Shown here one piece after another: positions 2,389-46,840 of a stretch of DNA of 47,316 nt. The notes below the pieces were generated by a model. It ran no database searches. It saw nothing but the letters and a program-made list of their open reading frames with translations, and was not told where the DNA came from. Both the position numbers and the translations under genes were made by a program. Positions within the stretch are counted from its first letter, which is position 1. Every line of letters starts with the position of its first letter. The DNA is from Natronospirales bacterium (lineage in GTDB: Bacteria > Pseudomonadota > Gammaproteobacteria > Natronospirales > JAIVGZ01): assembly GCA_020201335.1 (NCBI GenBank), contig JAIVGZ010000038.1, positions 1 through 47,316 on the forward strand, read 5' to 3'.

Positions 2389-2457
2389 GGAATCGCGAAT
2401 CACAGATTCGCTCCCACAGGCCAGAGGGCCGCTCCCACACGGAGCACCGCTCCCACA
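2389..2457 (-). repeat. Composite of three REP-type palindromes
   Basis: Read on the minus strand, three modules follow each other: TGTGGGAGCGGTGCTCCG (family A, 3' half missing), TGTGGGAGCGGCCCTCTGG plus CC (family B, 3' arm cut), and an intact family C copy with stem GCGAATC/GATTCGC around TGT. The 51 bases at 2389-2439 recur exactly at 41761-41811. The element lies between rpoS and the Mth938-domain gene. Confidence 0.9.
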
Positions 2458-3350: not shown

Positions 3351-4085
3351 TCAGCGAGGCGGGAGATGTTGCAGCGGGTCGACGGCCAGGCCGTCTATCC
3401 GGATTTCGAAATGCAACATGGTGCGCCGCCCCGGACCTTCCCCCATCGTGGCGATGCGTTGCCCGGCGCTGACCTCGTCGCCTTCCTGCACGAGGATTCG
3501 TTGATTGTGCGCGTAGGCGCTGAGCAACTGGTTGTTGTGTTTGACGATGATAAGCTCGCCATATCCGATCAGTCCACTACCAGTGTAGACGACCCGTCCC
3601 GCCGCCGCTGCGCGTACCGCCTGACCGGAACTCCCGGCAATCGCAATACCCTTTCCATTCCCTCGCGCGATCAGCTCACCATCCGCCGGCCACTGGAACG
3701 ATACGCCGGTGGTCGCCGCAGGCGATGGTCGCGGCGTGACGGGCGTCACCGGTCGCTGCGCCGTCGTGCCGCTCGGTTCGCTACGCGTAGCGGTGCGTGG
3801 CGTCGATGCGGTTTGCGGTGCGCCTTGCGATGCGCCGTGCAATTGCAGCACCTGCCCGGGGCGAATCAGGTAGCCCGGCCCGTCGATGCCGTTCCAGCGC
3901 GCGACATTCCGCCAGTCGAGCCCGTGACGGAATGCAATTGAATAGACGGTGTCGCCCGAGCGGACGGTGTAGCTGGGTGCATCCCGCCAGTGCCCGGGTT
4001 GCGCTGCACACGCGACAAGGACCGCACACGCCAGCGCAAGTGCGGCGCCGCGTGCCGCGTATTTCAGCCCCTGAGCAGCAGCCAT
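3351..4085 (-). CDS. nlpD: NlpD-like lipoprotein, LysM plus degenerate M23 domain
   Basis: Envelope lipoprotein of the EnvC/NlpD family, whose members activate periplasmic amidases during cell separation. The 244-residue product starts MAAAQGLKYAARGAALAL, with a lipobox ending VLVAC|A near residue 24. A LysM domain follows (YTVRSGDTVYSIAFRHG ... LIRPGQVLQL), then a Pro/Thr-rich linker and a C-terminal LytM/M23 domain (GVSFQWPADGEL ... GQRIATMGEG ... MLHFEIRIDG). The usual first zinc ligands (HxxxD) are replaced around GNGKGIAIAG, so this is likely a regulator rather than a hydrolase. The ATG at 4085 lies within the end of the yqaA-like gene (22-base overlap); a longer frame upstream is only a shadow of that gene. 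Confidence 0.9.
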   Translation of the reverse strand: MAAAQGLKYAARGAALALACAVLVACAAQPGHWRDAPSYTVRSGDTVYSIAFRHGLDWRNVARWNGIDGPGYLIRPGQVLQLHGASQGAPQTASTPRTATRSEPSGTTAQRPVTPVTPRPSPAATTGVSFQWPADGELIARGNGKGIAIAGSSGQAVRAAAAGRVVYTGSGLIGYGELIIVKHNNQLLSAYAHNQRILVQEGDEVSAGQRIATMGEGPGRRTMLHFEIRIDGLAVDPLQHLPPR

Positions 4086-4642
4086 GCGACGAGCACGGCG
4101 GCCACGACGAGCCAACCGATCAGGTCGATGTAGCGGCGGAGCAAGGGCTCGATGCGCGGACCGACCGCACGAACCAGTGCGGCGACCAGGAAGAAGCGGC
4201 AGCCGCGCCCGACCAGAGACGCAGCCGCGAACGGCAACAGCGCCATCGCAGCTGCACCGGACGCAATGGTGAACACCTTGTACGGTATCGGCGAGAACCC
4301 GGCCAGGAACACTATCCAGACGCCCCATTCGTCGTACAGGATGGTCGCGCGCAGGTATCCGTCCCACCACCCGACACGCTGCAGCAGCGGCGTGACCGCC
4401 TCGATCGCAAAGTAACCGATTGCGTAACCGAGCAGGCCGCCGGCCACCGACGCCAGCGTTGTAATCAGCGCGAAGCGCCACCAGCGCTCCGGCCGCGCTA
4501 GCGTCATCGGTGCGAGCATCACATCCGGCGGGACCGGAAAGAACGAGGATTCCGCGAAGCTCAACACACCGAGGTACCATGGCGCGTGACGGTGCGCAGA
4601 CCACGCGAGCGTCCGGTCATAGAGCTGCGCGAAGATGCGCAT
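4064..4642 (-). CDS. yqaA: YqaA-family inner-membrane protein (VTT/DedA-like)
   Basis: A 192-residue multi-spanning membrane protein with a SNARE-associated (VTT/DedA) domain. Typical motifs are the SFAESSFFPVPPDVMLAPM segment near residues 28-46 and VFLAGFSPIPYKVFTIASGA near residues 113-132, including the re-entrant FSPIPYK loop. The last helix is GWLVVAAVLVAWLLLRG. DedA-type proteins are linked to lipid scrambling and membrane homeostasis; the exact substrate of YqaA is unknown. The gene begins with an ATG that shares its A with the pcm stop (TGATG) and overlaps nlpD at its end, so it sits inside the pcm-nlpD-rpoS unit. Confidence 0.85.
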   Translation of the reverse strand: MRIFAQLYDRTLAWSAHRHAPWYLGVLSFAESSFFPVPPDVMLAPMTLARPERWWRFALITTLASVAGGLLGYAIGYFAIEAVTPLLQRVGWWDGYLRATILYDEWGVWIVFLAGFSPIPYKVFTIASGAAAMALLPFAAASLVGRGCRFFLVAALVRAVGPRIEPLLRRYIDLIGWLVVAAVLVAWLLLRG

Positions 4643-6070: not shown

Positions 6071-6610
6071 ATGCCGCGCCGCCCCCGCCTGAGCGACGAA
6101 GAACGCGCACTGTTCCGCGAATTCGTCGCGGGCACGCGGCCGCTGCCCCCCGGTGAACCCCCGCCAACACAAAAGCGCCGCCCGAAACCGATTCCGCGCC
6201 AGACGCTCGACGACGAGCGTGCGGTGGTCAAGGAACTCGCCGACGCGCTGCCCGACCTCGACACCGAGACCGGCGACGAAGTGGCCTGGCGGACGCCGGG
6301 CGTACAGGACTCAGTACTCCGCAAGCTGCGGCGCGGTCACTTCCGCATCGACCGCAATCTCGATTTGCACGGCCATACCTCCGCGACCGCGAAGGTCGAG
6401 GTCGCCGACTTCCTGCGCAGCGCGCGCGAAGAGGGAATGACCTGCGTGCGCATCGTGCACGGCAAGGGCCATGGTTCGCGCGAGGGGCGCGCGGTGCTCA
6501 AGCACCGGGTCGCAAACTGGTTGATGCACCACGCCGGCGTACTCGCGTTCGTATCCGCGCGCCCAGCCGAGGGCGGCACCGGGGCTGTGCTTGTGTTGTT
6601 AAGAAAATAA
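6071..6610 (+). CDS. Smr/MutS2-domain protein (putative endonuclease)
   Basis: A 179-residue protein ending in an Smr domain. The N-terminus is charged and proline-rich ([18 protein letters not shown] ... [16 protein letters not shown]). The Smr core has [16 protein letters not shown] near residue 96, [15 protein letters not shown] near residue 125 and the closing [12 protein letters not shown]. These LDxHG, HGKG and GGxGA(V/L) signatures define the family, members of which are nicking nucleases in DNA repair or mRNA cleavage at stalled ribosomes; which applies here is unknown. It is divergent from surE and lies 14 bases upstream of nhaC, so the two may be co-transcribed. Its promoter must overlap the surE 5' region. 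Confidence 0.88.
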
Positions 6611-6624
6611 AACGGGGATAAGGC

Positions 6625-8229
6625 ATGACCGGAACTTGGATTTCCATCCTGCCACCGCTGGTGGCAATCGTCCTCGCCCTCGCCTTCCGGCAGGTTCTCA
6701 TCGCGTTGTTCGCCGGTTTGTGGCTCGGCGCCTTCTTCGTCAATGGTGGTGACCTCGCCGCAGCGTGGACCGGCCTGCTCGACACCTTCGCCGTGTACCT
6801 GCGCGACGCACTTGCCGACGCGGACCACGCGGCGATCATCCTTTTCTCGCTGATGATCGGCGGGATGGTCGGCATCATTTCCCGCAATGGCGGCATGCTG
6901 GGTGTCGTCGACCGCATCACGCGCTGGGCCTCGACGCCGCGCCGCGGCCAGCTCGCGACGACCGGGCTCGGCGTCGGCATCTTCTTCGACGACTACGCGA
7001 ACACGCTGATCGTCGGCAACACCATGCGCGCGGTTACCGACCGGCTACGCGTGTCGCGCGAGAAGCTTGCGTACCTTGTCGACTCGACTGCAGCCCCGAT
7101 TGCTGCGGTTGCGCTGGTTACCACCTGGATCGGCATGCAGGTCGGGCTGATTGGTGAAGCCGTAGGGCGGATCGATGGCTACGACGAATCCGCGTACTCA
7201 ATCTTCCTCAACTCACTCGCGTACAGCTTCTACCCGCTGCTCGCGCTCGCGTTCGTCGTGATGGTCGCGTGGAGTGGGCGTGATTTCGGTCCAATGCTGG
7301 CCGCTGAGCGCCACGCCCGTGAGCACGGCGTCGGCACAGCAACCGGTGCGCGCAACATGCGCCTCGCCAATGAACTCGAAGCGCTGATGCCGGATGCCGG
7401 CACCGCGCGCCGCGCGCGCAACGCGGTCGTGCCGATCGCGGTGCTGGTCATCGCGACGCTGGGCGGGCTGTGGGTAACCGGGCGCGCCGATGCCGGTGCC
7501 GATGCGCCGCTGCGCGAAGTGATCGGCAGCGCGGACTCGTACCGCTCGCTGCTGTGGGGCTCTCTACTCGGCGTGGTCACCGCGCTCGTGATGACCGCCG
7601 CGCAACGGCTGATGCCGCTCGAGGATGCACTTGACGCGTGGCTCGCCGGCATCAAATCGGTACTGCCTGCGATGTTGATCCTGATGCTTGCCTGGGCGCT
7701 GTCGGCGGTTTCGGAACAACTCGGGACAGCGGCGTTCCTGACCTCGGCTCTTGGCGACACGATCAGCCCCACGGTGTTGCCGACGCTGGTATTCGTGATG
7801 GCGGCAGTCACTGCTTTCTCGACCGGCACCAGCTGGGGAACGATGGGCATCCTGATGCCGCTCGTCGTACCGCTCGCTTGGGCGGTACTTGGTGCCGACG
7901 GCATTACCGGCGACGCGGCTGACCTTCAGGTGCTGTATGCATCGGTGGCCGCAGTACTTGCCGGCGCCGTCTGGGGCGACCACTGCTCGCCCCTGTCCGA
8001 TACCACCATCCTCAGTTCGATGGCGTCCGGCTGCGACCACATCGCGCATGTGCGTACGCAGCTGCCGTACGCCTTGCTCGTGGGCGGCGCGGCCATCGTG
8101 CTCGGCCTGCTGCCGGTCGGCCTCGGTGTGCCGTGGTGGATTTGTTTGCCAGTTGCAATGATTGTGCTCGCTATCTCCTTGCGCCTCTTCGGGCACAAGG
8201 CCGACGGAGAGGCCTCATTTGGTCACTAA
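6625..8229 (+). CDS. nhaC: NhaC-family Na+/H+ antiporter
   Basis: A 534-residue inner-membrane antiporter of the NhaC/Na+:H+ antiporter superfamily. The hydrophobic segments begin SILPPLVAIVLALAFRQVL and GLWLGAFFVNGG. Conserved family motifs include GGMVGIISRNGGMLGVV, GIFFDDYANTLIVGNTMR, LVDSTAAPIAAVALVTTWIG, STGTSWGTMGILMPL and GAVWGDHCSPLSDTTILSS. The protein has roughly a dozen membrane spans. Substrate cannot be fixed from sequence: relatives exchange Na+ for H+, and some take up amino acids or malate. The ribosome binding site GGGGATAAGG precedes the ATG closely. The last 15 bases overlap the convergent putP gene tail to tail. Confidence 0.9.
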   Translation: MTGTWISILPPLVAIVLALAFRQVLIALFAGLWLGAFFVNGGDLAAAWTGLLDTFAVYLRDALADADHAAIILFSLMIGGMVGIISRNGGMLGVVDRITRWASTPRRGQLATTGLGVGIFFDDYANTLIVGNTMRAVTDRLRVSREKLAYLVDSTAAPIAAVALVTTWIGMQVGLIGEAVGRIDGYDESAYSIFLNSLAYSFYPLLALAFVVMVAWSGRDFGPMLAAERHAREHGVGTATGARNMRLANELEALMPDAGTARRARNAVVPIAVLVIATLGGLWVTGRADAGADAPLREVIGSADSYRSLLWGSLLGVVTALVMTAAQRLMPLEDALDAWLAGIKSVLPAMLILMLAWALSAVSEQLGTAAFLTSALGDTISPTVLPTLVFVMAAVTAFSTGTSWGTMGILMPLVVPLAWAVLGADGITGDAADLQVLYASVAAVLAGAVWGDHCSPLSDTTILSSMASGCDHIAHVRTQLPYALLVGGAAIVLGLLPVGLGVPWWICLPVAMIVLAISLRLFGHKADGEASFGH

Positions 8230-9639: not shown

Positions 9640-9665
9640 ATCGCGGCCAGAGGGCCGCTCCTACA
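9640..9665 (-). repeat. REP-type palindrome, family B
   Basis: Minus-strand reading TGTAGGAGCGGCCCTCTGGC continuing CGCGAT; stem GCGGCC/GGCCGC around CTCT. It lies between the isomerase gene and putP, ending one base before the alternative putP GTG. A fragment resembling half of another copy (GCACCGCTC) follows at 9669-9677. Confidence 0.88.
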
Positions 9666-12932: not shown

Positions 12933-16771
<3,839 letters not shown>

Positions 16772-19126: not shown

Positions 19127-19202
19127 ATCGCGGTGCGGAGCACCGCTCCTACACTGAAGGGACTCGGACGCCAATGTAGGAGCGGTGCTCCGCACCGCGA
19201 TT
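19127..19202. repeat. REPIN: two inverted family A palindromes
   Basis: Two complete family A copies in opposite orientation, at 19127-19153 (minus) and 19175-19202 (plus), separated by a 21-base spacer. The heads (TGTAGGAG) face each other across the spacer. This REP doublet form is the unit mobilised by RAYT transposases in pseudomonads and xanthomonads. It fills most of the 120-base gap between dnaE and accA and could fold as one long hairpin in the transcript. Nothing else is seen in the gap. Confidence 0.9.
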
Positions 19203-34822: not shown

Positions 34823-34848
34823 TGTGGGAGCGAATCTGTGATTCGCGA
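34823..34848 (+). repeat. REP-type palindrome, family C
   Basis: TGTGGGAGCGAATCTGTGAT continuing TCGCGA; stem GCGAATC/GATTCGC around TGT. It lies in the transcribed spacer between tsf and pyrH, where it could act on mRNA stability or attenuation within the operon. Nothing else is seen in this 121-base gap. Confidence 0.88.
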
Positions 34849-34862
34849 CAACCTTCGACCGG

Positions 34863-37789: not shown

Positions 37790-40392
37790 ACCGAACGACC
37801 CTTCCGTTACGCGAGTCACTCGCGGCCCTGAACGCCGAACAAGCCGAGCGCTTCCAGAACGCGGAGCGCGCGTCGGTACTTGTAAGGGAGCGGGCGGAGG
37901 CTGTTGATGGGATTTGTCGTAGTGCCTTTGCGGAATTTTTCGGGAGCGAGTGTGGGAGCGGCCCTCTGGCCGCGATTTCTTTAATCGCGGTCGGTGGCTA
38001 CGGCCGCGGTGAGCTGCACCCCTGCTCCGATGTCGACCTGATGCTGCTCGTCGCCGAAGACGCGACCGATGAATTGCGCGGGCGAATCGAGTCGCTGGTC
38101 GCTTTCCTCTGGGACTGCGGGCTCGAAGTCGGCCACTCAGTGCGTACGGTCGCGCAATGCGTGACCGAGGCCGAGCGCGACATTACGGTCGCGACGAACC
38201 TGATGGAGTCGCGGCCGGTGGCCGGCTCGACGCAGCTTTACCACGAGATGCGCGCCGTTACCGGGCCCGACCGCGTTTGGCCGGGCCGCGCGTTTTTCGA
38301 AGCGAAGTGGGCGGAGCAGCAGGCGCGCCACGCGCGCTACCACGACACCGCGTACAAGCTCGAGCCGAATGTGAAGGAGAGCCCGGGCGGGCTGCGCGAC
38401 ATCCAGATGATTGGTTGGGTGGCGAAACGCCACTTCGGCGTTGCAACGCTCGCCGAGCTGGTCGGTCAGGGCTTCCTGACCGAGGGCGAGTACGAGCAAC
38501 TGAGCGCTGGCCAGGACTTTCTATGGCAAGTGCGCTTCGCGCTGCATGTCATCACCGGCCGCCGCGAGGACCGGTTGCTGTTCGACCACCAGCAGAAGCT
38601 CGCGAAGACCTTCGGCTACCGCGACGCCGGGCATTCGCTCGCAGTCGAGCAATTCATGCAGCGCTACTACCGCGCCATCATCGACCTCAGCCGCCTGAAC
38701 GAAGTGTTGTTGCAGCTTTTCCAGGAGGCCATCCTGCACGCCGGCGAGCGGCAGGAACCCGCGCCGATCAACCCGCGCTTCGAGGAGGTGAACGGCTTCC
38801 TGCAGATTACGCACCCGCGCGTGTTCGAGGACACGCCATCGGCGTTGCTGGAAATCTTCCACCTGTTGCAGCAGAACCCGCACCTGAAGGGCGTACGCGC
38901 CGAAACGATCCGGCTGCTGCTGCGCGCGCGTGACTCTATAGATGACGCGTTTCGCGCCGACCCGGCCAACCGTGAGCTGTTCATGGCAATCCTGCGCGAA
39001 CCAGTCGGAATCACGCACGAGCTGCGGCGCATGAACCGCTACGGCATCCTCGGCCGCTACATCCCGGTGTTCGGCCGCATCGTCGGCCGTATGCAGTACG
39101 ACTTGTTCCACGCCTACACGGTGGACGAGCACACGCTGTTCGTCGTCAGCAACCTGCGCCGCTTCGCGTTGCCCCGCTTCGACTCGGAGTTCCCGTTCGC
39201 CAGCAGCGTGATGCAGGGTTTGGCGAAGCCGGAACTTGCGTACATCGCCGGCCTGTTCCACGACATCGCAAAGGGGCGCGGGGGCGACCACTCCGAGCTC
39301 GGCGCCAGTGACGCCGAAAACTTCTGTGCCGAACACGGCTTGTCGCGCTACGACACGCGGGTCGTTTCGTGGCTGGTCCAGAACCACCTGCTGCTATCAA
39401 TCACTGCACAGAAGAAAGACATCTCGGACCCAATCGTAATCCACGGCTTCGCCGCCGCGATCGGCGACCAGGCCCACCTGGACTACCTGTTCGTACTGAC
39501 CTGCGCCGATGTGCGCGGCACCAACCCGGACCTCTGGAACTCCTGGAAGCGCTCGCTGTTCGAAGACCTGTACCGGCAGACACGGCGGGCGCTGCGGCGC
39601 GGCCTCGAGAACCCCATCGACAAGGACGAACTCGTCGCGGAGACGCGCAACTCGGCGCGCGCGTTGTGCGCGCTGCAAGGGTTTGACAGCACGGTGCTCG
39701 ACGAACTGTGGTCCGGCTATTCCGACGACTACTTCCTGCAGCACACGCCCGACGAGATCGCGTGGCACGCGTCGGCGCTGGTCAGCGACCACGACCCGGA
39801 CGCAACGGTGGTGCTCGTGCGCCAGACGATAGAGCGCGGCGGCACTGCAGTGTTCGTCCACGCGGCGCACGACCCCGGTGCGTTCGCGCGCGCGACCGCA
39901 GTGCTCGACCAGCTGCGGCTCACCGTGATGGACGCGCGGCTCGTACCAGACCGCAGCGGCCGCAGCCTCGCCACCTACATCGTGCTGGAAGCGGACGGCG
40001 AGCCGATTACCGGCCGTCAGCGCATTGAGGAGATTCAGTACACGCTGCACGACGCGATGCGGCAGCGCGGCGCGGCACCCCGACCGGTCACGCGCCGGGC
40101 GCCCCGCAAGATTCGCGCTTTTCAGACACCCACGCAGGTCACTTTCACTGCCGATGCGCGCAACGACCGCACCGTCGTTGAACTGGTGTCCGGCGACCGG
40201 CCGGGCCTGCTCGCCGAGATCGGCAAGACTTTCGCCGATAACGGCGTGGCCGTTCAGACCGCAAAAATCACGACAGTCGGAGAGCGCGTCGAGGATGTGT
40301 TCTTCGTCACGGGCCCTGCCGGCCGCGCACTGGATGGCGCCGCCGAGGCGCGCCTCGAGCAGGCATTGCTTACAACCCTCACAGCGAGCTGA
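37717..40392 (+). CDS. glnD: Bifunctional PII uridylyltransferase/uridylyl-removing enzyme GlnD
   Basis: Nitrogen-sensing enzyme that uridylylates PII at low glutamine and reverses it at high glutamine. The 891-residue frame shows the nucleotidyltransferase motif AVGGYGRGELHPCSDVDLML near residues 90-109, LEPNVKESPGGLRDIQMIGW, the HD domain GLFHDIAKGRGGDHSELG near residue 513, and two C-terminal ACT domains (the second starts TVVELVSGDRPGLLAEIGKT). ATG 37717 is the only standard start in frame but overlaps map by 73 bases. A CTG at 37786, overlapping the map stop, would give a more usual N-terminus. Residues 79-87 (CGSGPLAAI) are encoded by an exact family B REP palindrome. Confidence 0.94.
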   Translation: MGTHDTGHRRRSRNPDPPAGRRSLNRTTLPLRESLAALNAEQAERFQNAERASVLVRERAEAVDGICRSAFAEFFGSECGSGPLAAISLIAVGGYGRGELHPCSDVDLMLLVAEDATDELRGRIESLVAFLWDCGLEVGHSVRTVAQCVTEAERDITVATNLMESRPVAGSTQLYHEMRAVTGPDRVWPGRAFFEAKWAEQQARHARYHDTAYKLEPNVKESPGGLRDIQMIGWVAKRHFGVATLAELVGQGFLTEGEYEQLSAGQDFLWQVRFALHVITGRREDRLLFDHQQKLAKTFGYRDAGHSLAVEQFMQRYYRAIIDLSRLNEVLLQLFQEAILHAGERQEPAPINPRFEEVNGFLQITHPRVFEDTPSALLEIFHLLQQNPHLKGVRAETIRLLLRARDSIDDAFRADPANRELFMAILREPVGITHELRRMNRYGILGRYIPVFGRIVGRMQYDLFHAYTVDEHTLFVVSNLRRFALPRFDSEFPFASSVMQGLAKPELAYIAGLFHDIAKGRGGDHSELGASDAENFCAEHGLSRYDTRVVSWLVQNHLLLSITAQKKDISDPIVIHGFAAAIGDQAHLDYLFVLTCADVRGTNPDLWNSWKRSLFEDLYRQTRRALRRGLENPIDKDELVAETRNSARALCALQGFDSTVLDELWSGYSDDYFLQHTPDEIAWHASALVSDHDPDATVVLVRQTIERGGTAVFVHAAHDPGAFARATAVLDQLRLTVMDARLVPDRSGRSLATYIVLEADGEPITGRQRIEEIQYTLHDAMRQRGAAPRPVTRRAPRKIRAFQTPTQVTFTADARNDRTVVELVSGDRPGLLAEIGKTFADNGVAVQTAKITTVGERVEDVFFVTGPAGRALDGAAEARLEQALLTTLTAS
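37951..37976 (+). repeat. REP-type palindrome, family B, in frame inside glnD
   Basis: TGTGGGAGCGGCCCTCTGGC then CGCGAT, identical to the copy at 46295-46320; stem GCGGCC/GGCCGC around CTCT. It is translated as CGSGPLAAI just before the GlnD active-site motif. Confidence 0.95.
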
Positions 40393-40416: not shown

Positions 40417-41616
40417 ATGAACCCCGACCTCTCGAAGCTTCACCCGTACCCGTTCGAGCGCCTCGCAACGCTGAAGGAAGGCGTCACGCCGCCGGCCGCG
40501 CTCCCGCACATCGCGCTGTCGATCGGCGAGCCGCGACACACGCCGCCGGCTTTCGTGCTCGACGCGCTGCGCAACAAGCTCGAAGGGCTCGCCAGCTACC
40601 CGATGGCGCTAGGGCTGCCGGAACTACGGGAGGCGATTGTTGGATGGGCAACGCGCCGCTTCGGCCTGCGCGCGAGCATGCTCGACCCGGCACGGCATGT
40701 GCTGCCGGTAAGTGGAACACGTGAAGGCCTGTTCGCGTTCGCGCAGGCGGTGGTCGACCGTATGCAGCGCGCGCCGGTCGTGATGATGCCGAACCCGTTC
40801 TACCAAATATACGAAGGCGCCGCGCTGCTCGCCGGCGCCGAGCCGTACTACCTCAACACAACCGCCGCCAATGGCTTTGTGCCCGACCTCGACACGGTTA
40901 CGAAAGATATCTGGCGCCGGTGTCAGCTCGTGTACGTCTGCTCGCCGGGCAACCCGACCGGCGCGGTACTGGAGCGCGGGTTCTACCGGCGGCTGCTCGA
41001 ACTCGCCGATGAACATGACTTCATTGTCGCGTCCGACGAGTGTTATTCGGAGCTGTACGATGACGAGGCCACCCCGCCGCCGGGGCTGCTGGGCGTCTGC
41101 GCAGAGCTCGGCCGCGACGACTTCAGCCGCTGCGTGGTATTCCACTCGCTGTCGAAACGCTCGAATGTTCCGGGCCTGCGCTCGGGCTTCGCCGCCGGCG
41201 ACGCGGAAGTGATGGCGAAGTTCCGGCTCTACCGTACTTACCACGGCTGTGCAGTTCCGGTGCCGACGCAGTTCGCATCGATCCCGGCGTGGAACGACGA
41301 GGCGCATGTGGTGGATAACCGCGCGCTGTACCGGCGCAAGTTCGATGACGCGCTACGCATCCTCACGCCGGTCCTCGAAGTGCAGCGTCCGCCTGCCGCG
41401 TTCTACCTGTGGCTCCCGGTGCCGGGCGGCGATGACGAGGCATTCGTGCGCGAGCTCTTCCGCGCGCAGAACCTGACGCTGCTGCCGGGCTCGTACCTGT
41501 CGCGCATGACGCCGGACGGCGACCCCGGCGCCGGCTTCGTACGCGTGTCGCTAGTGCCGTCGATCGACGAGTGCGCAGACGCGATGCGCCGCATCGCCGC
41601 ATTCGTCGGCGTGTAG
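40417..41616 (+). CDS. dapC: Succinyldiaminopimelate transaminase DapC
   Basis: PLP-dependent class I/II aminotransferase converting N-succinyl-2-amino-6-ketopimelate to N-succinyl-LL-diaminopimelate in lysine and cell-wall synthesis. The 399-residue product has LHPYPFERLATLKEG at the start, PHIALSIGEPRHTPP, LPVSGTREGLFAFAQA, YVCSPGNPTGAVL, IVASDECYSELYDD (Asp binding the pyridine N) and FHSLSKRSNVPGLRSGFAAG with the Schiff-base Lys in SLSKRS. Adjacent dapD and dapE support the call. ATG 40417 is preferred over the GTG before it. The stop codon TAG is the third to fifth base of a REP palindrome (family A). Confidence 0.94.
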   Translation: MNPDLSKLHPYPFERLATLKEGVTPPAALPHIALSIGEPRHTPPAFVLDALRNKLEGLASYPMALGLPELREAIVGWATRRFGLRASMLDPARHVLPVSGTREGLFAFAQAVVDRMQRAPVVMMPNPFYQIYEGAALLAGAEPYYLNTTAANGFVPDLDTVTKDIWRRCQLVYVCSPGNPTGAVLERGFYRRLLELADEHDFIVASDECYSELYDDEATPPPGLLGVCAELGRDDFSRCVVFHSLSKRSNVPGLRSGFAAGDAEVMAKFRLYRTYHGCAVPVPTQFASIPAWNDEAHVVDNRALYRRKFDDALRILTPVLEVQRPPAAFYLWLPVPGGDDEAFVRELFRAQNLTLLPGSYLSRMTPDGDPGAGFVRVSLVPSIDECADAMRRIAAFVGV

Positions 41617-41638
41617 GAGCGGTGCTCCGCACCGCGAT
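41612..41638 (+). repeat. REP-type palindrome, family A, supplying the dapC stop codon
   Basis: TGTAGGAGCGGTGCTCCGCA then CCGCGAT. The TAG of the TGTAGGAG head ends the dapC frame, so the element forms the immediate 3' boundary of the gene and could act as an mRNA end structure. Confidence 0.93.
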
Positions 41639-41679
41639 GGCAGAGCTTTCTAGTGGCACCGCGCCCGCCGCACCGCTCG

Positions 41680-41732
41680 CTCCTATGGGTTCACCGGCTT
41701 TTACAGAGCCGGCTGAAACCCATAAGTCGCTT
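41680..41732 (+). repeat. Long palindrome, family D
   Basis: Outer stem TATGGGTT (41684-41691) with AACCCATA (41717-41724) and inner stem CCGGCT (41694-41699) with AGCCGG (41707-41712), followed by AGTCGCTT. It matches the element at 46783-46840 on the other strand, with paired changes in the stems. Confidence 0.85.
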
Positions 41733-41760
41733 CGCGCTTGCGCCGGGACGCGGTACTCAA

Positions 41761-41811
41761 TGTGGGAGCGGCCCTCTGGCCTGTGGGAGCGAATCTGTGA
41801 TTCGCGATTCC
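41761..41811 (+). repeat. Composite REP: truncated family B joined to family C
   Basis: TGTGGGAGCGGCCCTCTGGC plus C, lacking its closing CGCGAT arm end, runs directly into a full family C copy ending GATTCGCGATTCC. The 51 bases are identical to 2389-2439 (opposite strand). Confidence 0.92.
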
Positions 41812-41890
41812 TTTGGCCTAGGACCGGCTCGCCGCACCGGGCGCCCGGGACAAGTGCGCGCCGCCGGCAGGCGTCGCCGACATGGATGAC

Positions 41891-41945
41891 AGCGGTGCTC
41901 CGCACCGCGATGGCAGAGGTCGCCAATCACAGATTGGCTCCCACA
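41891..41945. repeat. Headless family A palindrome and inverted variant family C palindrome
   Basis: 41891-41911 is AGCGGTGCTCCGCACCGCGA plus T without the TGTAGG head. 41919-41945, read on the minus strand, is a family C element with stem GCCAATC/GATTGGC instead of GCGAATC/GATTCGC: both arms changed together and pairing is kept. Confidence 0.88.
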
Positions 41946-41959
41946 GGAGGAGTTTGGCT

Positions 41960-41965
41960 TAGAAT
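41960..41965 (+). promoter_or_regulatory. Possible -10 element of dapD
   Basis: TAGAAT six bases before the dapD ATG. The only GGAGG in the neighbourhood (41946-41950) is about 20 bases from the ATG and too far to be a ribosome site, which fits a leaderless transcript. No clear -35. Confidence 0.35.
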
Positions 41966-41971
41966 TGCGCG

Positions 41972-43936: not shown

Positions 43937-43963
43937 TGTGGGAGCGAATCTGCGATTCGCGAC
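43937..43963 (+). repeat. REP-type palindrome, family C
   Basis: TGTGGGAGCGAATCTGCGAT then TCGCGAC; stem GCGAATC/GATTCGC with loop TGC instead of TGT. It lies between dapE and the acetyltransferase gene. Confidence 0.9.
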
Positions 43964-45250: not shown

Positions 45251-46333
45251 TCAGCGTTGGTCTGCGGCGAACCATCTCGATTTAAGCCACAAAGCGACGC
45301 TGACGAGCCCGATCAATACCGGTACTTCCACGAGCGGGCCGATAACTGTCGCGAACGCGACCCCCGACCCAAGCCCAAATGCCGCAATCGCAACGGCAAT
45401 CGCGAGTTCAAAGTTGTTGCTGGCCGCAGTGAACGACAGGCTGGTCGTCCGTTCGTAATCTGCGCCAATCCACTTGCCCATCGCGAAGCTGACCAGGAAC
45501 ATGACCACGAAGTAGATTGCGAGCGGTACCGCGATGCGCAGCGCATCCAGCGGCACCTCGATGATCATCCCACCCTGCAGGCTGAACATCGCGATGATTG
45601 TGAAGAGCAGCGCGAACAGTGTCACCGGCGCGATGCGCGGCACGAACACCGTGTCGTACCACTCGGCACCCTTGCGTGGGCGCAGCCAGTGCCGCGTCGC
45701 CCAACCGGCGAAGAACGGGATACCCAGATATACGAATACCGCGTAAGCGATCGTGCTGAACGGCACGTCGATTACGCTGCCCTCGAGCCCGAACAACGGC
45801 GGCAGCACGGTCAGGAAGAACCACGCGTACACTGAGAAGAATGCCAGCTGGAACACGCTATTGAACGCGACCAGTCCGGCGACGTACTCATTACTTCCGC
45901 GGGCGAGCGTGTTCCACACAATTACCATCGCGATGCAGCGCGCGAGCCCAATCAGAATCACGCCGGTCATGTACTCGGGATAGTTGCGCAGGAACAACAC
46001 CGCCAACAGAAACATCAGCACCGGTCCAATCAGCCAGTTCTGCAGCAGCGAAAGCGCCAGCACCCGGCGGTCCGCGAATACCTGCGGGAGCGCCTCGTAG
46101 CGCACGCGTGCGAGCGGCGGGTACATCATCACGATCAGGCCGACCGCGATCAGCAGGTTTGTGTCGCCGATGGCCGCACGGCCGAGTACCGCAGGCAGAT
46201 TCGTGAAGTAGTGGCCGAGCGCCGTACCGAGCGCCATCGCCGCGAAAATCCATAGAGTGAGATAACGATCCAAAAAACCAAGGCGCTGTGTCTGTGTGGG
46301 AGCGGCCCTCTGGCCGCGATTCTCCAAGCTCAA
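45251..46333 (-). CDS. acr3: ACR3-family arsenite efflux transporter
   Basis: Inner-membrane arsenite exporter of the bile/arsenite/riboflavin transporter fold, 360 residues with about ten spans. Signatures: [70 protein letters not shown] (the conserved Cys of ARCIAMV), [11 protein letters not shown], and [19 protein letters not shown]. The TTG at 46333 overlaps the arsC stop as TTGA and has GGAGG five bases upstream, so this start is likely real. Residues 5-13 (NRGQRAAPT) are then encoded by a REP palindrome before the first helix. It forms an operon with arsC. Confidence 0.92.
46295..46320 (+). repeat. REP-type palindrome, family B, inside the acr3 5' coding end
   Basis: Exact copy of the glnD element, here antisense to acr3. 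It encodes about residues 5-13 of the predicted transporter if the TTG start at 46333 is used. Confidence 0.93.
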
Positions 46334-46731: not shown

Positions 46732-46757
46732 ATCGCGGCCAGAGGGCCGCTCCTACA
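46732..46757 (-). repeat. REP-type palindrome, family B
   Basis: Minus-strand TGTAGGAGCGGCCCTCTGGC then CGCGAT, with TGTAGG head rather than TGTGGG. Located 16 bases upstream of the arsC start. Confidence 0.9.
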
Positions 46758-46782
46758 TTGCCACGGTCGGGCACAGCTGCGC

Positions 46783-46840
46783 AGCGACTTGTGGGTTACA
46801 GCCGGCTCCCGAAGAGCCGGTGAACCCACCGCTCCTACAT
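46783..46840 (-). repeat. Long palindrome, family D, downstream of phoU
   Basis: On the minus strand ATGTAGGAGCGGTGGGTTCA leads into CCGGCTC-TTCGG-GAGCCGG, then CTGTAACCCAC and AAGTCGCT. The outer GTGGGTT/AACCCAC and inner stems pair. It starts three bases after the phoU stop and could form the transcript end or protect the 3' end of phoU mRNA. Confidence 0.85.

Follow-up and report, generated by a model that had tools for sequence, protein, structure and literature searches.

Why would the same fusion of two short repeats, one of them broken off at the same base, stand at two distant loci of a single contig? The window analysed here is a stretch of 47,316 nucleotides, contig C47 of a MAG of a Natronospirales bacterium (1,829,008 bases in 77 contigs, 84.75% complete). 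An earlier reading, made from the letters alone (the sequence-only reading), had reported in it a 51-base composite in which a truncated B element is fused to a C element, with a truncated A element added at one of the two sites. It proposed that the composite itself had moved or that the truncation point is used by the mechanism. Both proposals are followed here through the window, the rest of the genome and other bacteria.

Results

A search of the window allowing up to three mismatches returned two copies of the 51-mer, both exact (41761-41811 on the plus strand and 2389-2439 on the minus strand), and the 51-mer was absent from all 100 dinucleotide-shuffled versions of the window. The identity reported for the two distant loci was thus borne out. 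The same holds for the truncated A unit, A′ (TGTGGGAGCGGTGCTCCG), which lies directly 5′ of the minus-strand copy at 2440-2457, and for the common end point of the B unit, which in both copies stops after GGCC and lacks the arm GCGAT (Table 1). Beyond the 51 bases, the likeness between the two copies was lost within about 11 bases on the left and about 5 on the right. The composite reads as a stacked REP: a B unit (B′) that stops just past the tip of the B hairpin and, immediately after it, the head of a complete C unit. Since the GCGATT at the 3′ end of the composite is common to the tails of B and C, it could alternatively be described as a B hairpin holding a C unit between GGCC and GCGAT.

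Each REP is laid out as a head, TGTRGGAGCG, followed by a hairpin and then by a tail, GAT or GAC. The hairpins are GCGGTGC-TCC-GCACCGC in class A, GCGGCC-CTCT-GGCCGC in class B and GCGAATC-TGT-GATTCGC in class C, and all three fold as strong DNA hairpins of 6-7 bp. A GTAG-like tetranucleotide directly 5′ of a short palindrome, as expected of GTAG/GTRG REPs, is found in this head and its 6-7 bp hairpins, and the copies are many and dispersed. The window holds 16 heads (0.26 expected) and the genome 327 exact heads (158 + 169) in 1.83 Mb, against 29 (13 + 16) in the reversed control. On these features A, B and C are classed as three sequence classes of one GTRG-tagged REP family, predicted to be non-autonomous hairpin elements of the kind served by RAYTs (REP-associated Y1/HUH transposases). 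They are too short for a gene, whereas an IS200/IS605 element would carry tnpA within its own ends. The sequence-only reading left unstated that A, B and C are ordinary REP palindromes.

In the genome stretches examined, 36 complete A, 34 complete C and 21 complete B units were counted. Inverted pairs whose heads are intact numbered only five in these stretches, and one of the five is a fused form of 45 nt. At short spacing, such pairs were frequent in Pseudomonas and in loci of the relatives G010 and G054. The A′ unit of an A′A stack folds into an alternative hairpin, GGAGC-GGT-GCTCC, and inspection by eye of the other classes disclosed no such hairpin. Some hairpins (L036, L048 and L001) combine a 5′ arm and a 3′ arm from different classes, the exchange lying in the loop, and A/B loop chimaeras occur in both directions (GCCCTCCGCACC and GTGCTCTGGCC).

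Three proteins of the genome matched the Y1_Tnp model. Two of them scored 108.3 and 132.7 bits against NCBIfam NF047646 (REP-associated tyrosine transposase; cut-off 80), and 22.0 and 22.7 bits against the IS200 model (cut-off 55). Their genes stand beside REPs of the matching class: the one on contig C63, at around 6433-6756, is flanked by C-type arrays, AATTCTTCC half-units among them, and the one on contig C56, at around 3842-4114, adjoins a B-type array and a B REPIN. No RAYT gene for class A was found in this 84.75% complete genome. The third Y1 protein (L010:1138-2376; G000 C64:23951-24277) falls below the RAYT cut-off and has a DnaA-like C-terminal part; no complete REP was seen beside its gene. 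Next to the B-type RAYT gene, two more tandem arrays were recognized by eye at L011:1000-1460, one of a repeat holding GATCCATGCACCTCGGTGTGA and one of a TGTGGTCCCGAA repeat, the latter of which may consist of very old half-units.

Within the window, several REP copies are intergenic and one, of class B, lies inside glnD (Table 1). The gap between dapC and dapD (41617-41971) is mostly REP mosaic, and the TAG stop codon of dapC is supplied by the head of an A REP. The B REP inside glnD leaves the reading frame unbroken and is situated immediately ahead of the nucleotidyltransferase motif. A second, longer palindrome, ATGGGTTCACCGGC...GCCGGCTGAAACCCATAAGTCGCT, is present between REPs (46761-46839 and 41680-41753), one copy being located directly 3′ of a REP head.

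Table 1. REP units and half-units located in the window.
Unit	Positions	Strand	Details
A′, truncated A unit	2440..2457	-	TGTGGGAGCGGTGCTCCG
B′, truncated B unit	2419..2439	-	cut identical to that at 41781
C, complete REP unit	2389..2418	-	
B′, truncated B unit	41761..41781	+	head TGTGGGAGCG + GCCCTCTGGCC, without the last arm GCGAT
C, complete REP unit	41782..41811	+	hairpin GCGAATC-TGT-GATTCGC, tail GATTCC
A, complete REP	41612..41638	+	head includes TAG stop codon (41614-41616) of dapC
C-like REP, inverted	41918..41945	+	closes the mosaic on the right; minus strand reads TGTGGGAGCCAATCTGTGATTGGCGACC
C, single complete REP	34823..34849	+	
C, single complete REP	43937..43963	+	one base different
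B, single complete REP	37951..37976	+	inside glnD reading frame
B, single complete REP	46295..46320	+	
B, single complete REP	46732..46757	-	
B, single complete REP	9640..9665	-	
A, single REP	15087..15110	-	
A, single complete REP	19127..19153	-	head to head with the A REP at 19175
A, single complete REP	19175..19201	+	

Stacks of this kind recur throughout the genome. Heads in tandem at a gap of 3-25 nt numbered 75 (34 + 41) in the whole genome and 0 + 0 in the reversed control, and a search with a fixed spacing of 25 nt gave no match. The window and the other stretches examined cover all 75. Forty-one of 43 arrays ended in one complete A, B or C hairpin after at least one cut 5′ unit; the other two, L048 and L053, end in no complete class, and L037, L024 and L067 (odd form) stand outside the count. 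There were one to five leading units per array. Among 78 leading units at a spacing of up to 40 nt, 63 were of 23 nt or less and 15 were of 24-40 nt, five of these (24-27 nt) being half-units with extra bases and ten measuring at least 30 nt. As a rule, the upstream unit retains its 5′ arm and loop and is without most of its 3′ arm.

The place of the cut was located in 46 de-duplicated units of up to 23 nt, longer ones being excluded and the apex being measured on the next REP instead of on the class of the unit itself. The cut fell 0-5 nt past the apex in 44 of them, 2-5 nt past it in 42 and 0-7 nt past it in all 46. The commonest unit ends were CTCCG (A′), GGCC (B′) and GAT(T) (C′), and CTCCAG, CCCCAA, CCAAC and TTCTTCC were also found. 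Fusion points other than that of B′C, which the sequence-only reading had suggested looking for, exist as units cut at a similar place with different letters. Thirteen units in this genome and 43 in other genomes are exact prefixes of the next REP, whose head follows without an extra base; many others carry extra bases before the next head (CAA, CAG, CC and others). The search required a head, and the start of the junction there is in part a consequence of this. In 30 of 40 arrays the first unit's end had no base in common with the left flank, 31.2 being expected by shuffling. No fixed tetranucleotide before the head, as in IS608, was apparent by eye; the bases before the heads vary, and C, G, T and A all occur. 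Full-full tandems are present as well (L027, L044 and L046, and L036 with a chimaeric first hairpin).

The composite of the window belongs to a dispersed set. When the genome was searched for it, as the sequence-only reading had advised, the 31-base junction of B′ with the following head was present at eight exact places, four of them with the full 51-mer. A B′ unit ending in GGCC was followed by C 11 times, by C′ twice and by B′ three times, and never by A or a complete B in the genome stretches examined. A′ units ending in CTCCG had A as the next unit in ten cases, A′ in three and B′ in one, namely the window site at 2389. Complete A and B units are common, yet C, C′ and B′ were the only successors of B′, which fits a single formation with later spread. 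Nine B′C copies with exact heads and a flank of at least 60 nt fell into seven left-flank and six right-flank groups, the left "flank" in multi-unit arrays being another half-unit and the source of a few of the left groups. Among the 36 pairs of these copies, none had both flanks in common, five had one and 31 had neither. Outside the nine were L020 (locus end), L047 (CGTGGG head), the B′C′ arrays (the first array of L003, and L039) and the A/B chimaera of L001. Ten A′A copies gave six left-flank and eight right-flank groups, and both flanks were common to none of their 45 pairs.

The B′C core has many left and many right neighbours, which therefore suggests that B′C was formed once and later dispersed. 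The proposal that the composite itself had moved is supported by the same nine flanked copies in unrelated contexts. Left flanks that group with no other copy (L002, L004, L055 and L038) stop exactly where the first half-unit begins with its T, so that the half-unit seems to act as the terminus of the mobile piece. A recent segmental duplication of one composite locus, with shared flanks, was the finding that the sequence-only reading named as fatal to its interpretation. The identity of the two window copies across 51 bases agrees with such an event, but the two are alike in neither flank beyond about a dozen bases and none of the 36 B′C pairs has both flanks in common; on this comparison it was rejected as extremely improbable. 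The facts reported for the composite stand and its movement is supported, while the idea of a truncation point used by the mechanism survives in a looser form: a similar place past the apex is cut across units, but the exact base recurs mostly by descent.

Two pairs of paralogous loci set a stacked REP against a simple one. L042, with a single A, and L004, with A′A, are alike on both sides and differ by 18 nt. L011, a B REPIN, matches L055 between the B head and the B′ cut, and the likeness resumes in the right half of the REPIN and runs about 20 nt past it; at the B′ cut of L055, a 36-nt C unit replaces 18 nt of the 3′ arm of B and spacer, and the outer left flank differs. Since the rest of the 3′ arm of B is missing, L055 represents a replacement and no clean insertion. 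Both pairs show a head joined beyond the tip of a REP already in place. As the loci are paralogues, gene conversion between REP copies could be the source of both pairs.

Half-units are also found in other bacteria. Tandem heads at a gap of 5-15 nt were detected in 8 of 56 genomes, our own included, with a control total of 1. The scan of the genome_contigs set returned at least 115 stretches, of which 80 loci were retained, and most of these were by eye a half-unit cut near the tip and followed by a complete REP. The matches listed include half-units of Pseudomonas, Rhodoferax, Methyloversatilis, Lysobacter, Alcanivorax and others, and the letters at their ends vary by lineage: GGGCTTG in Pseudomonas, GGCGCC(C/T) in Rhodoferax and GGCTTCT in Lysobacter. 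Among the matches listed, 96 of 105 units were cut 0-5 nt past the apex, in a set preselected by gap length (6-11 for the named loci, 5-15 for the relatives) that bounds the unit lengths. The loci of this set include some that by eye are not REPs (for example L081, L094, L095, L109, L110 and L126) and duplicate records (L061/L105 and L062/L125). In the arrays among these matches, flank and unit end had at least three bases in common in 19 of 108, about 3 being expected; older decayed half-units account for part of this excess. Inspection of G010 by eye showed a half-unit of the other class of the pair in L064, L066 and L059 and of the same class in L058 and L065. The exact composite junction was absent from genome_contigs and viral_contigs, sets from which our own genome is possibly missing.

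The Pseudomonas loci permitted a comparison of the two ends of the REPINs. Among the loci listed, 18 of 30 REPINs with an intact half-unit had another one at the opposite end (16 of 30 at the strictest threshold), a count based on a hand-made list of 40 of 42 loci, with L072 and L085 (other hairpins) excluded. In 14 neighbouring Pseudomonas REPINs, a decayed half-unit was present at 6 of 28 ends, at one end each, and at both ends in none. REPINs with an intact half-unit and their neighbours differed (Fisher p 0.004; 0.016 at the strictest threshold), the ends being not fully independent, and shuffled flanks attained the half-unit score in 22 of 8800 trials. Without the ascertainment split there was no excess, 18 of 46 REPINs being both-ended against 17.0 expected. 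The association between the two ends may be partly due to age, and several of the loci come from one genome.

One REPIN site could be compared between two Pseudomonas species (L079/L132). Only one of the two has the left half-unit of 16 nt, together with two bases of an A run; the right half-unit is kept in both, and the difference on the left fits gain or loss alike. There was no clean empty site at L079a/L132a, and the pairs L079c/L132c and L089/L119 were excluded for poor alignment. The outer halves of L138 match each other but not the inner REPs; in its orthologue L077, however, the left side is of the inner type, and in L150 the outer halves are unlike each other. Because L077 and L150 conflict with L138, the letter symmetry of outer halves was not used as proof. 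A search for the double-ended nested pattern with exact heads gave no match in 369 genomes of the class, and among the matches listed this form was confined to Pseudomonas loci.

Discussion

The A, B and C elements are ordinary members of the known REP/REPIN-RAYT kind. In the available parts of their description, GTAG-tagged REPs (Di Nocera et al. 2013, PMC3733652) have, as here, a short hairpin behind a GTRG tag, many copies and several classes per genome, with hybrid pairs of different classes and some tandem reiteration; the present genome differs in its frequent direct-orientation stacks, built of 5′ half-units that are cut at a recurring point. The available text on REPINs (Bertels and Rainey 2011, PMC3116915) has the head open an inverted pair, as it does in the Pseudomonas, G010 and G054 loci, whereas few REPs stand in intact inverted pairs in the genome stretches examined here. 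It also notes tandem REP arrays and core-deleted palindromes, as well as excision reads whose first base is that of the conserved 16-mer and which stop within the other REP; however, its spaced tandem arrays alternate classes at 72 and 112 bp, while the half-units here measure 15-21 nt. The pairing of each RAYT gene with REPs of one class recalls the RAYT/TnpAREP system (Corneloup et al. 2021, PMC8266576), here with two proteins that pass the NCBIfam cut-off. According to the available sections of that paper, the E. coli TnpAREP requires the attacking strand to carry a 3′ C and cleaves between C and T, and the enzymes tested cut between C and T or between C and A; the varied bases before the heads of this genome do not match these rules. 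BIMEs (bacterial interspersed mosaic elements of E. coli) are, like the arrays described here, mosaic intergenic blocks of REPs with recurring spacers, although the E. coli REPs are longer and bulged, as far as the available text of PMC3686654 goes. Direct half-unit stacks with a recurrent cut point are undescribed in the available parts of PMC3733652, PMC3116915 and PMC8266576, and we found no title on truncated, nested or composite REP stacks in a literature search that left subscription journals mostly out of scope.

How did the junctions arise? The reading that we prefer, with a probability of roughly 0.47, is that a REP or REPIN was joined head first into the hairpin tip of an older REP and that the stack then spread; it fits the cut point, the mixing of classes and the two paralogous pairs. 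The older REP would fold as single-stranded DNA and expose its hairpin tip, and into this tip a new REP or REPIN (an inverted pair) would insert or be joined with its head leading. What is left of the older REP, its severed 5′ half, would then stay outside the new element, the stack would spread as the end of the new element and, in places, slippage would expand the short direct repeat to as many as five half-units. RAYT cleavage and strand transfer would be the likeliest agent of the joining, an attribution weakened by the fact that heads are joined to varied bases. RAYT is a transposase of single-stranded DNA and cleaves close to the edges of REPs, which makes it the natural candidate. Insertion of REPIN into REPIN is argued mostly from other genomes, since only five inverted pairs with intact heads are present in the stretches examined of our own. 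More doubtful is the broader proposition that half-REP stacks are the footprint of REPIN insertion in many lineages, with RAYTs targeting single-stranded hairpin tips and the outer halves recording successive self-targeted insertions.

Slippage or template switching at the hairpin could also form the junction, the nascent strand leaving past the tip and restarting at its own or another REP head, with the RAYT uninvolved. Restarting at its own head would give A′A and C′C, and at another copy B′C; the cuts are concentrated shortly after the apex, at the point where hairpin formation is expected, homotypic arrays of two to five like half-units resemble slippage products, at least in their expansion, and A/B loop chimaeras exist in both directions. 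The presence of a half-unit in only one species at L079/L132 is explained as easily by slippage, and sharing between flank and unit end exceeded chance among the matches listed from other genomes. In this genome, however, the first junctions have no homology beyond chance, slippage alone predicts no restart specifically at the head, and half-units that differ in class from the next REP, as in B′C and in L064, L066 and L059 of G010 (but not in L058 and L065), are no copies of the local end. We consider that slippage very likely expands the arrays and may also start them; as the origin of the junctions without RAYT it is rather unlikely. For the same reason of class, plain tandem duplication of the own end of each REP was rejected as the sole cause.

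Still less probable is a deletion between neighbouring complete REPs, running from the tip of the first to the next head or just before it, that leaves a half-unit behind and yields composites that spread. Full-full tandems that could serve as its substrate do exist, and several of the junction bases (CAA, CAG and CC) look like the left flank of the next REP. However, the deletion would have to hit the same two end points, shortly after the apex and at the head, again and again in many genomes, the leading units are mostly short (63 of 78 at 23 nt or less, only ten of at least 30 nt), and the difference between L042 and L004 is a gain of 18 nt on a single A and no loss from a full tandem. Because the search itself partly fixes the exact start of a junction at a head, and flank bases are present at some junctions, the weight of joining at the tip was lowered slightly and that of deletion raised.

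Two of the works cited above (PMC3116915 and PMC8266576) describe the way in which REPs and REPINs arrive at new sites as unresolved or poorly understood. If half-REP stacks mark an insertion target, this target is the hairpin tip of existing REPs, and tip-targeted insertion, if true, would help to account for the clustering of REPs. If slippage makes the stacks, they still record errors provoked by hairpins and the way in which composite REPs form and spread.
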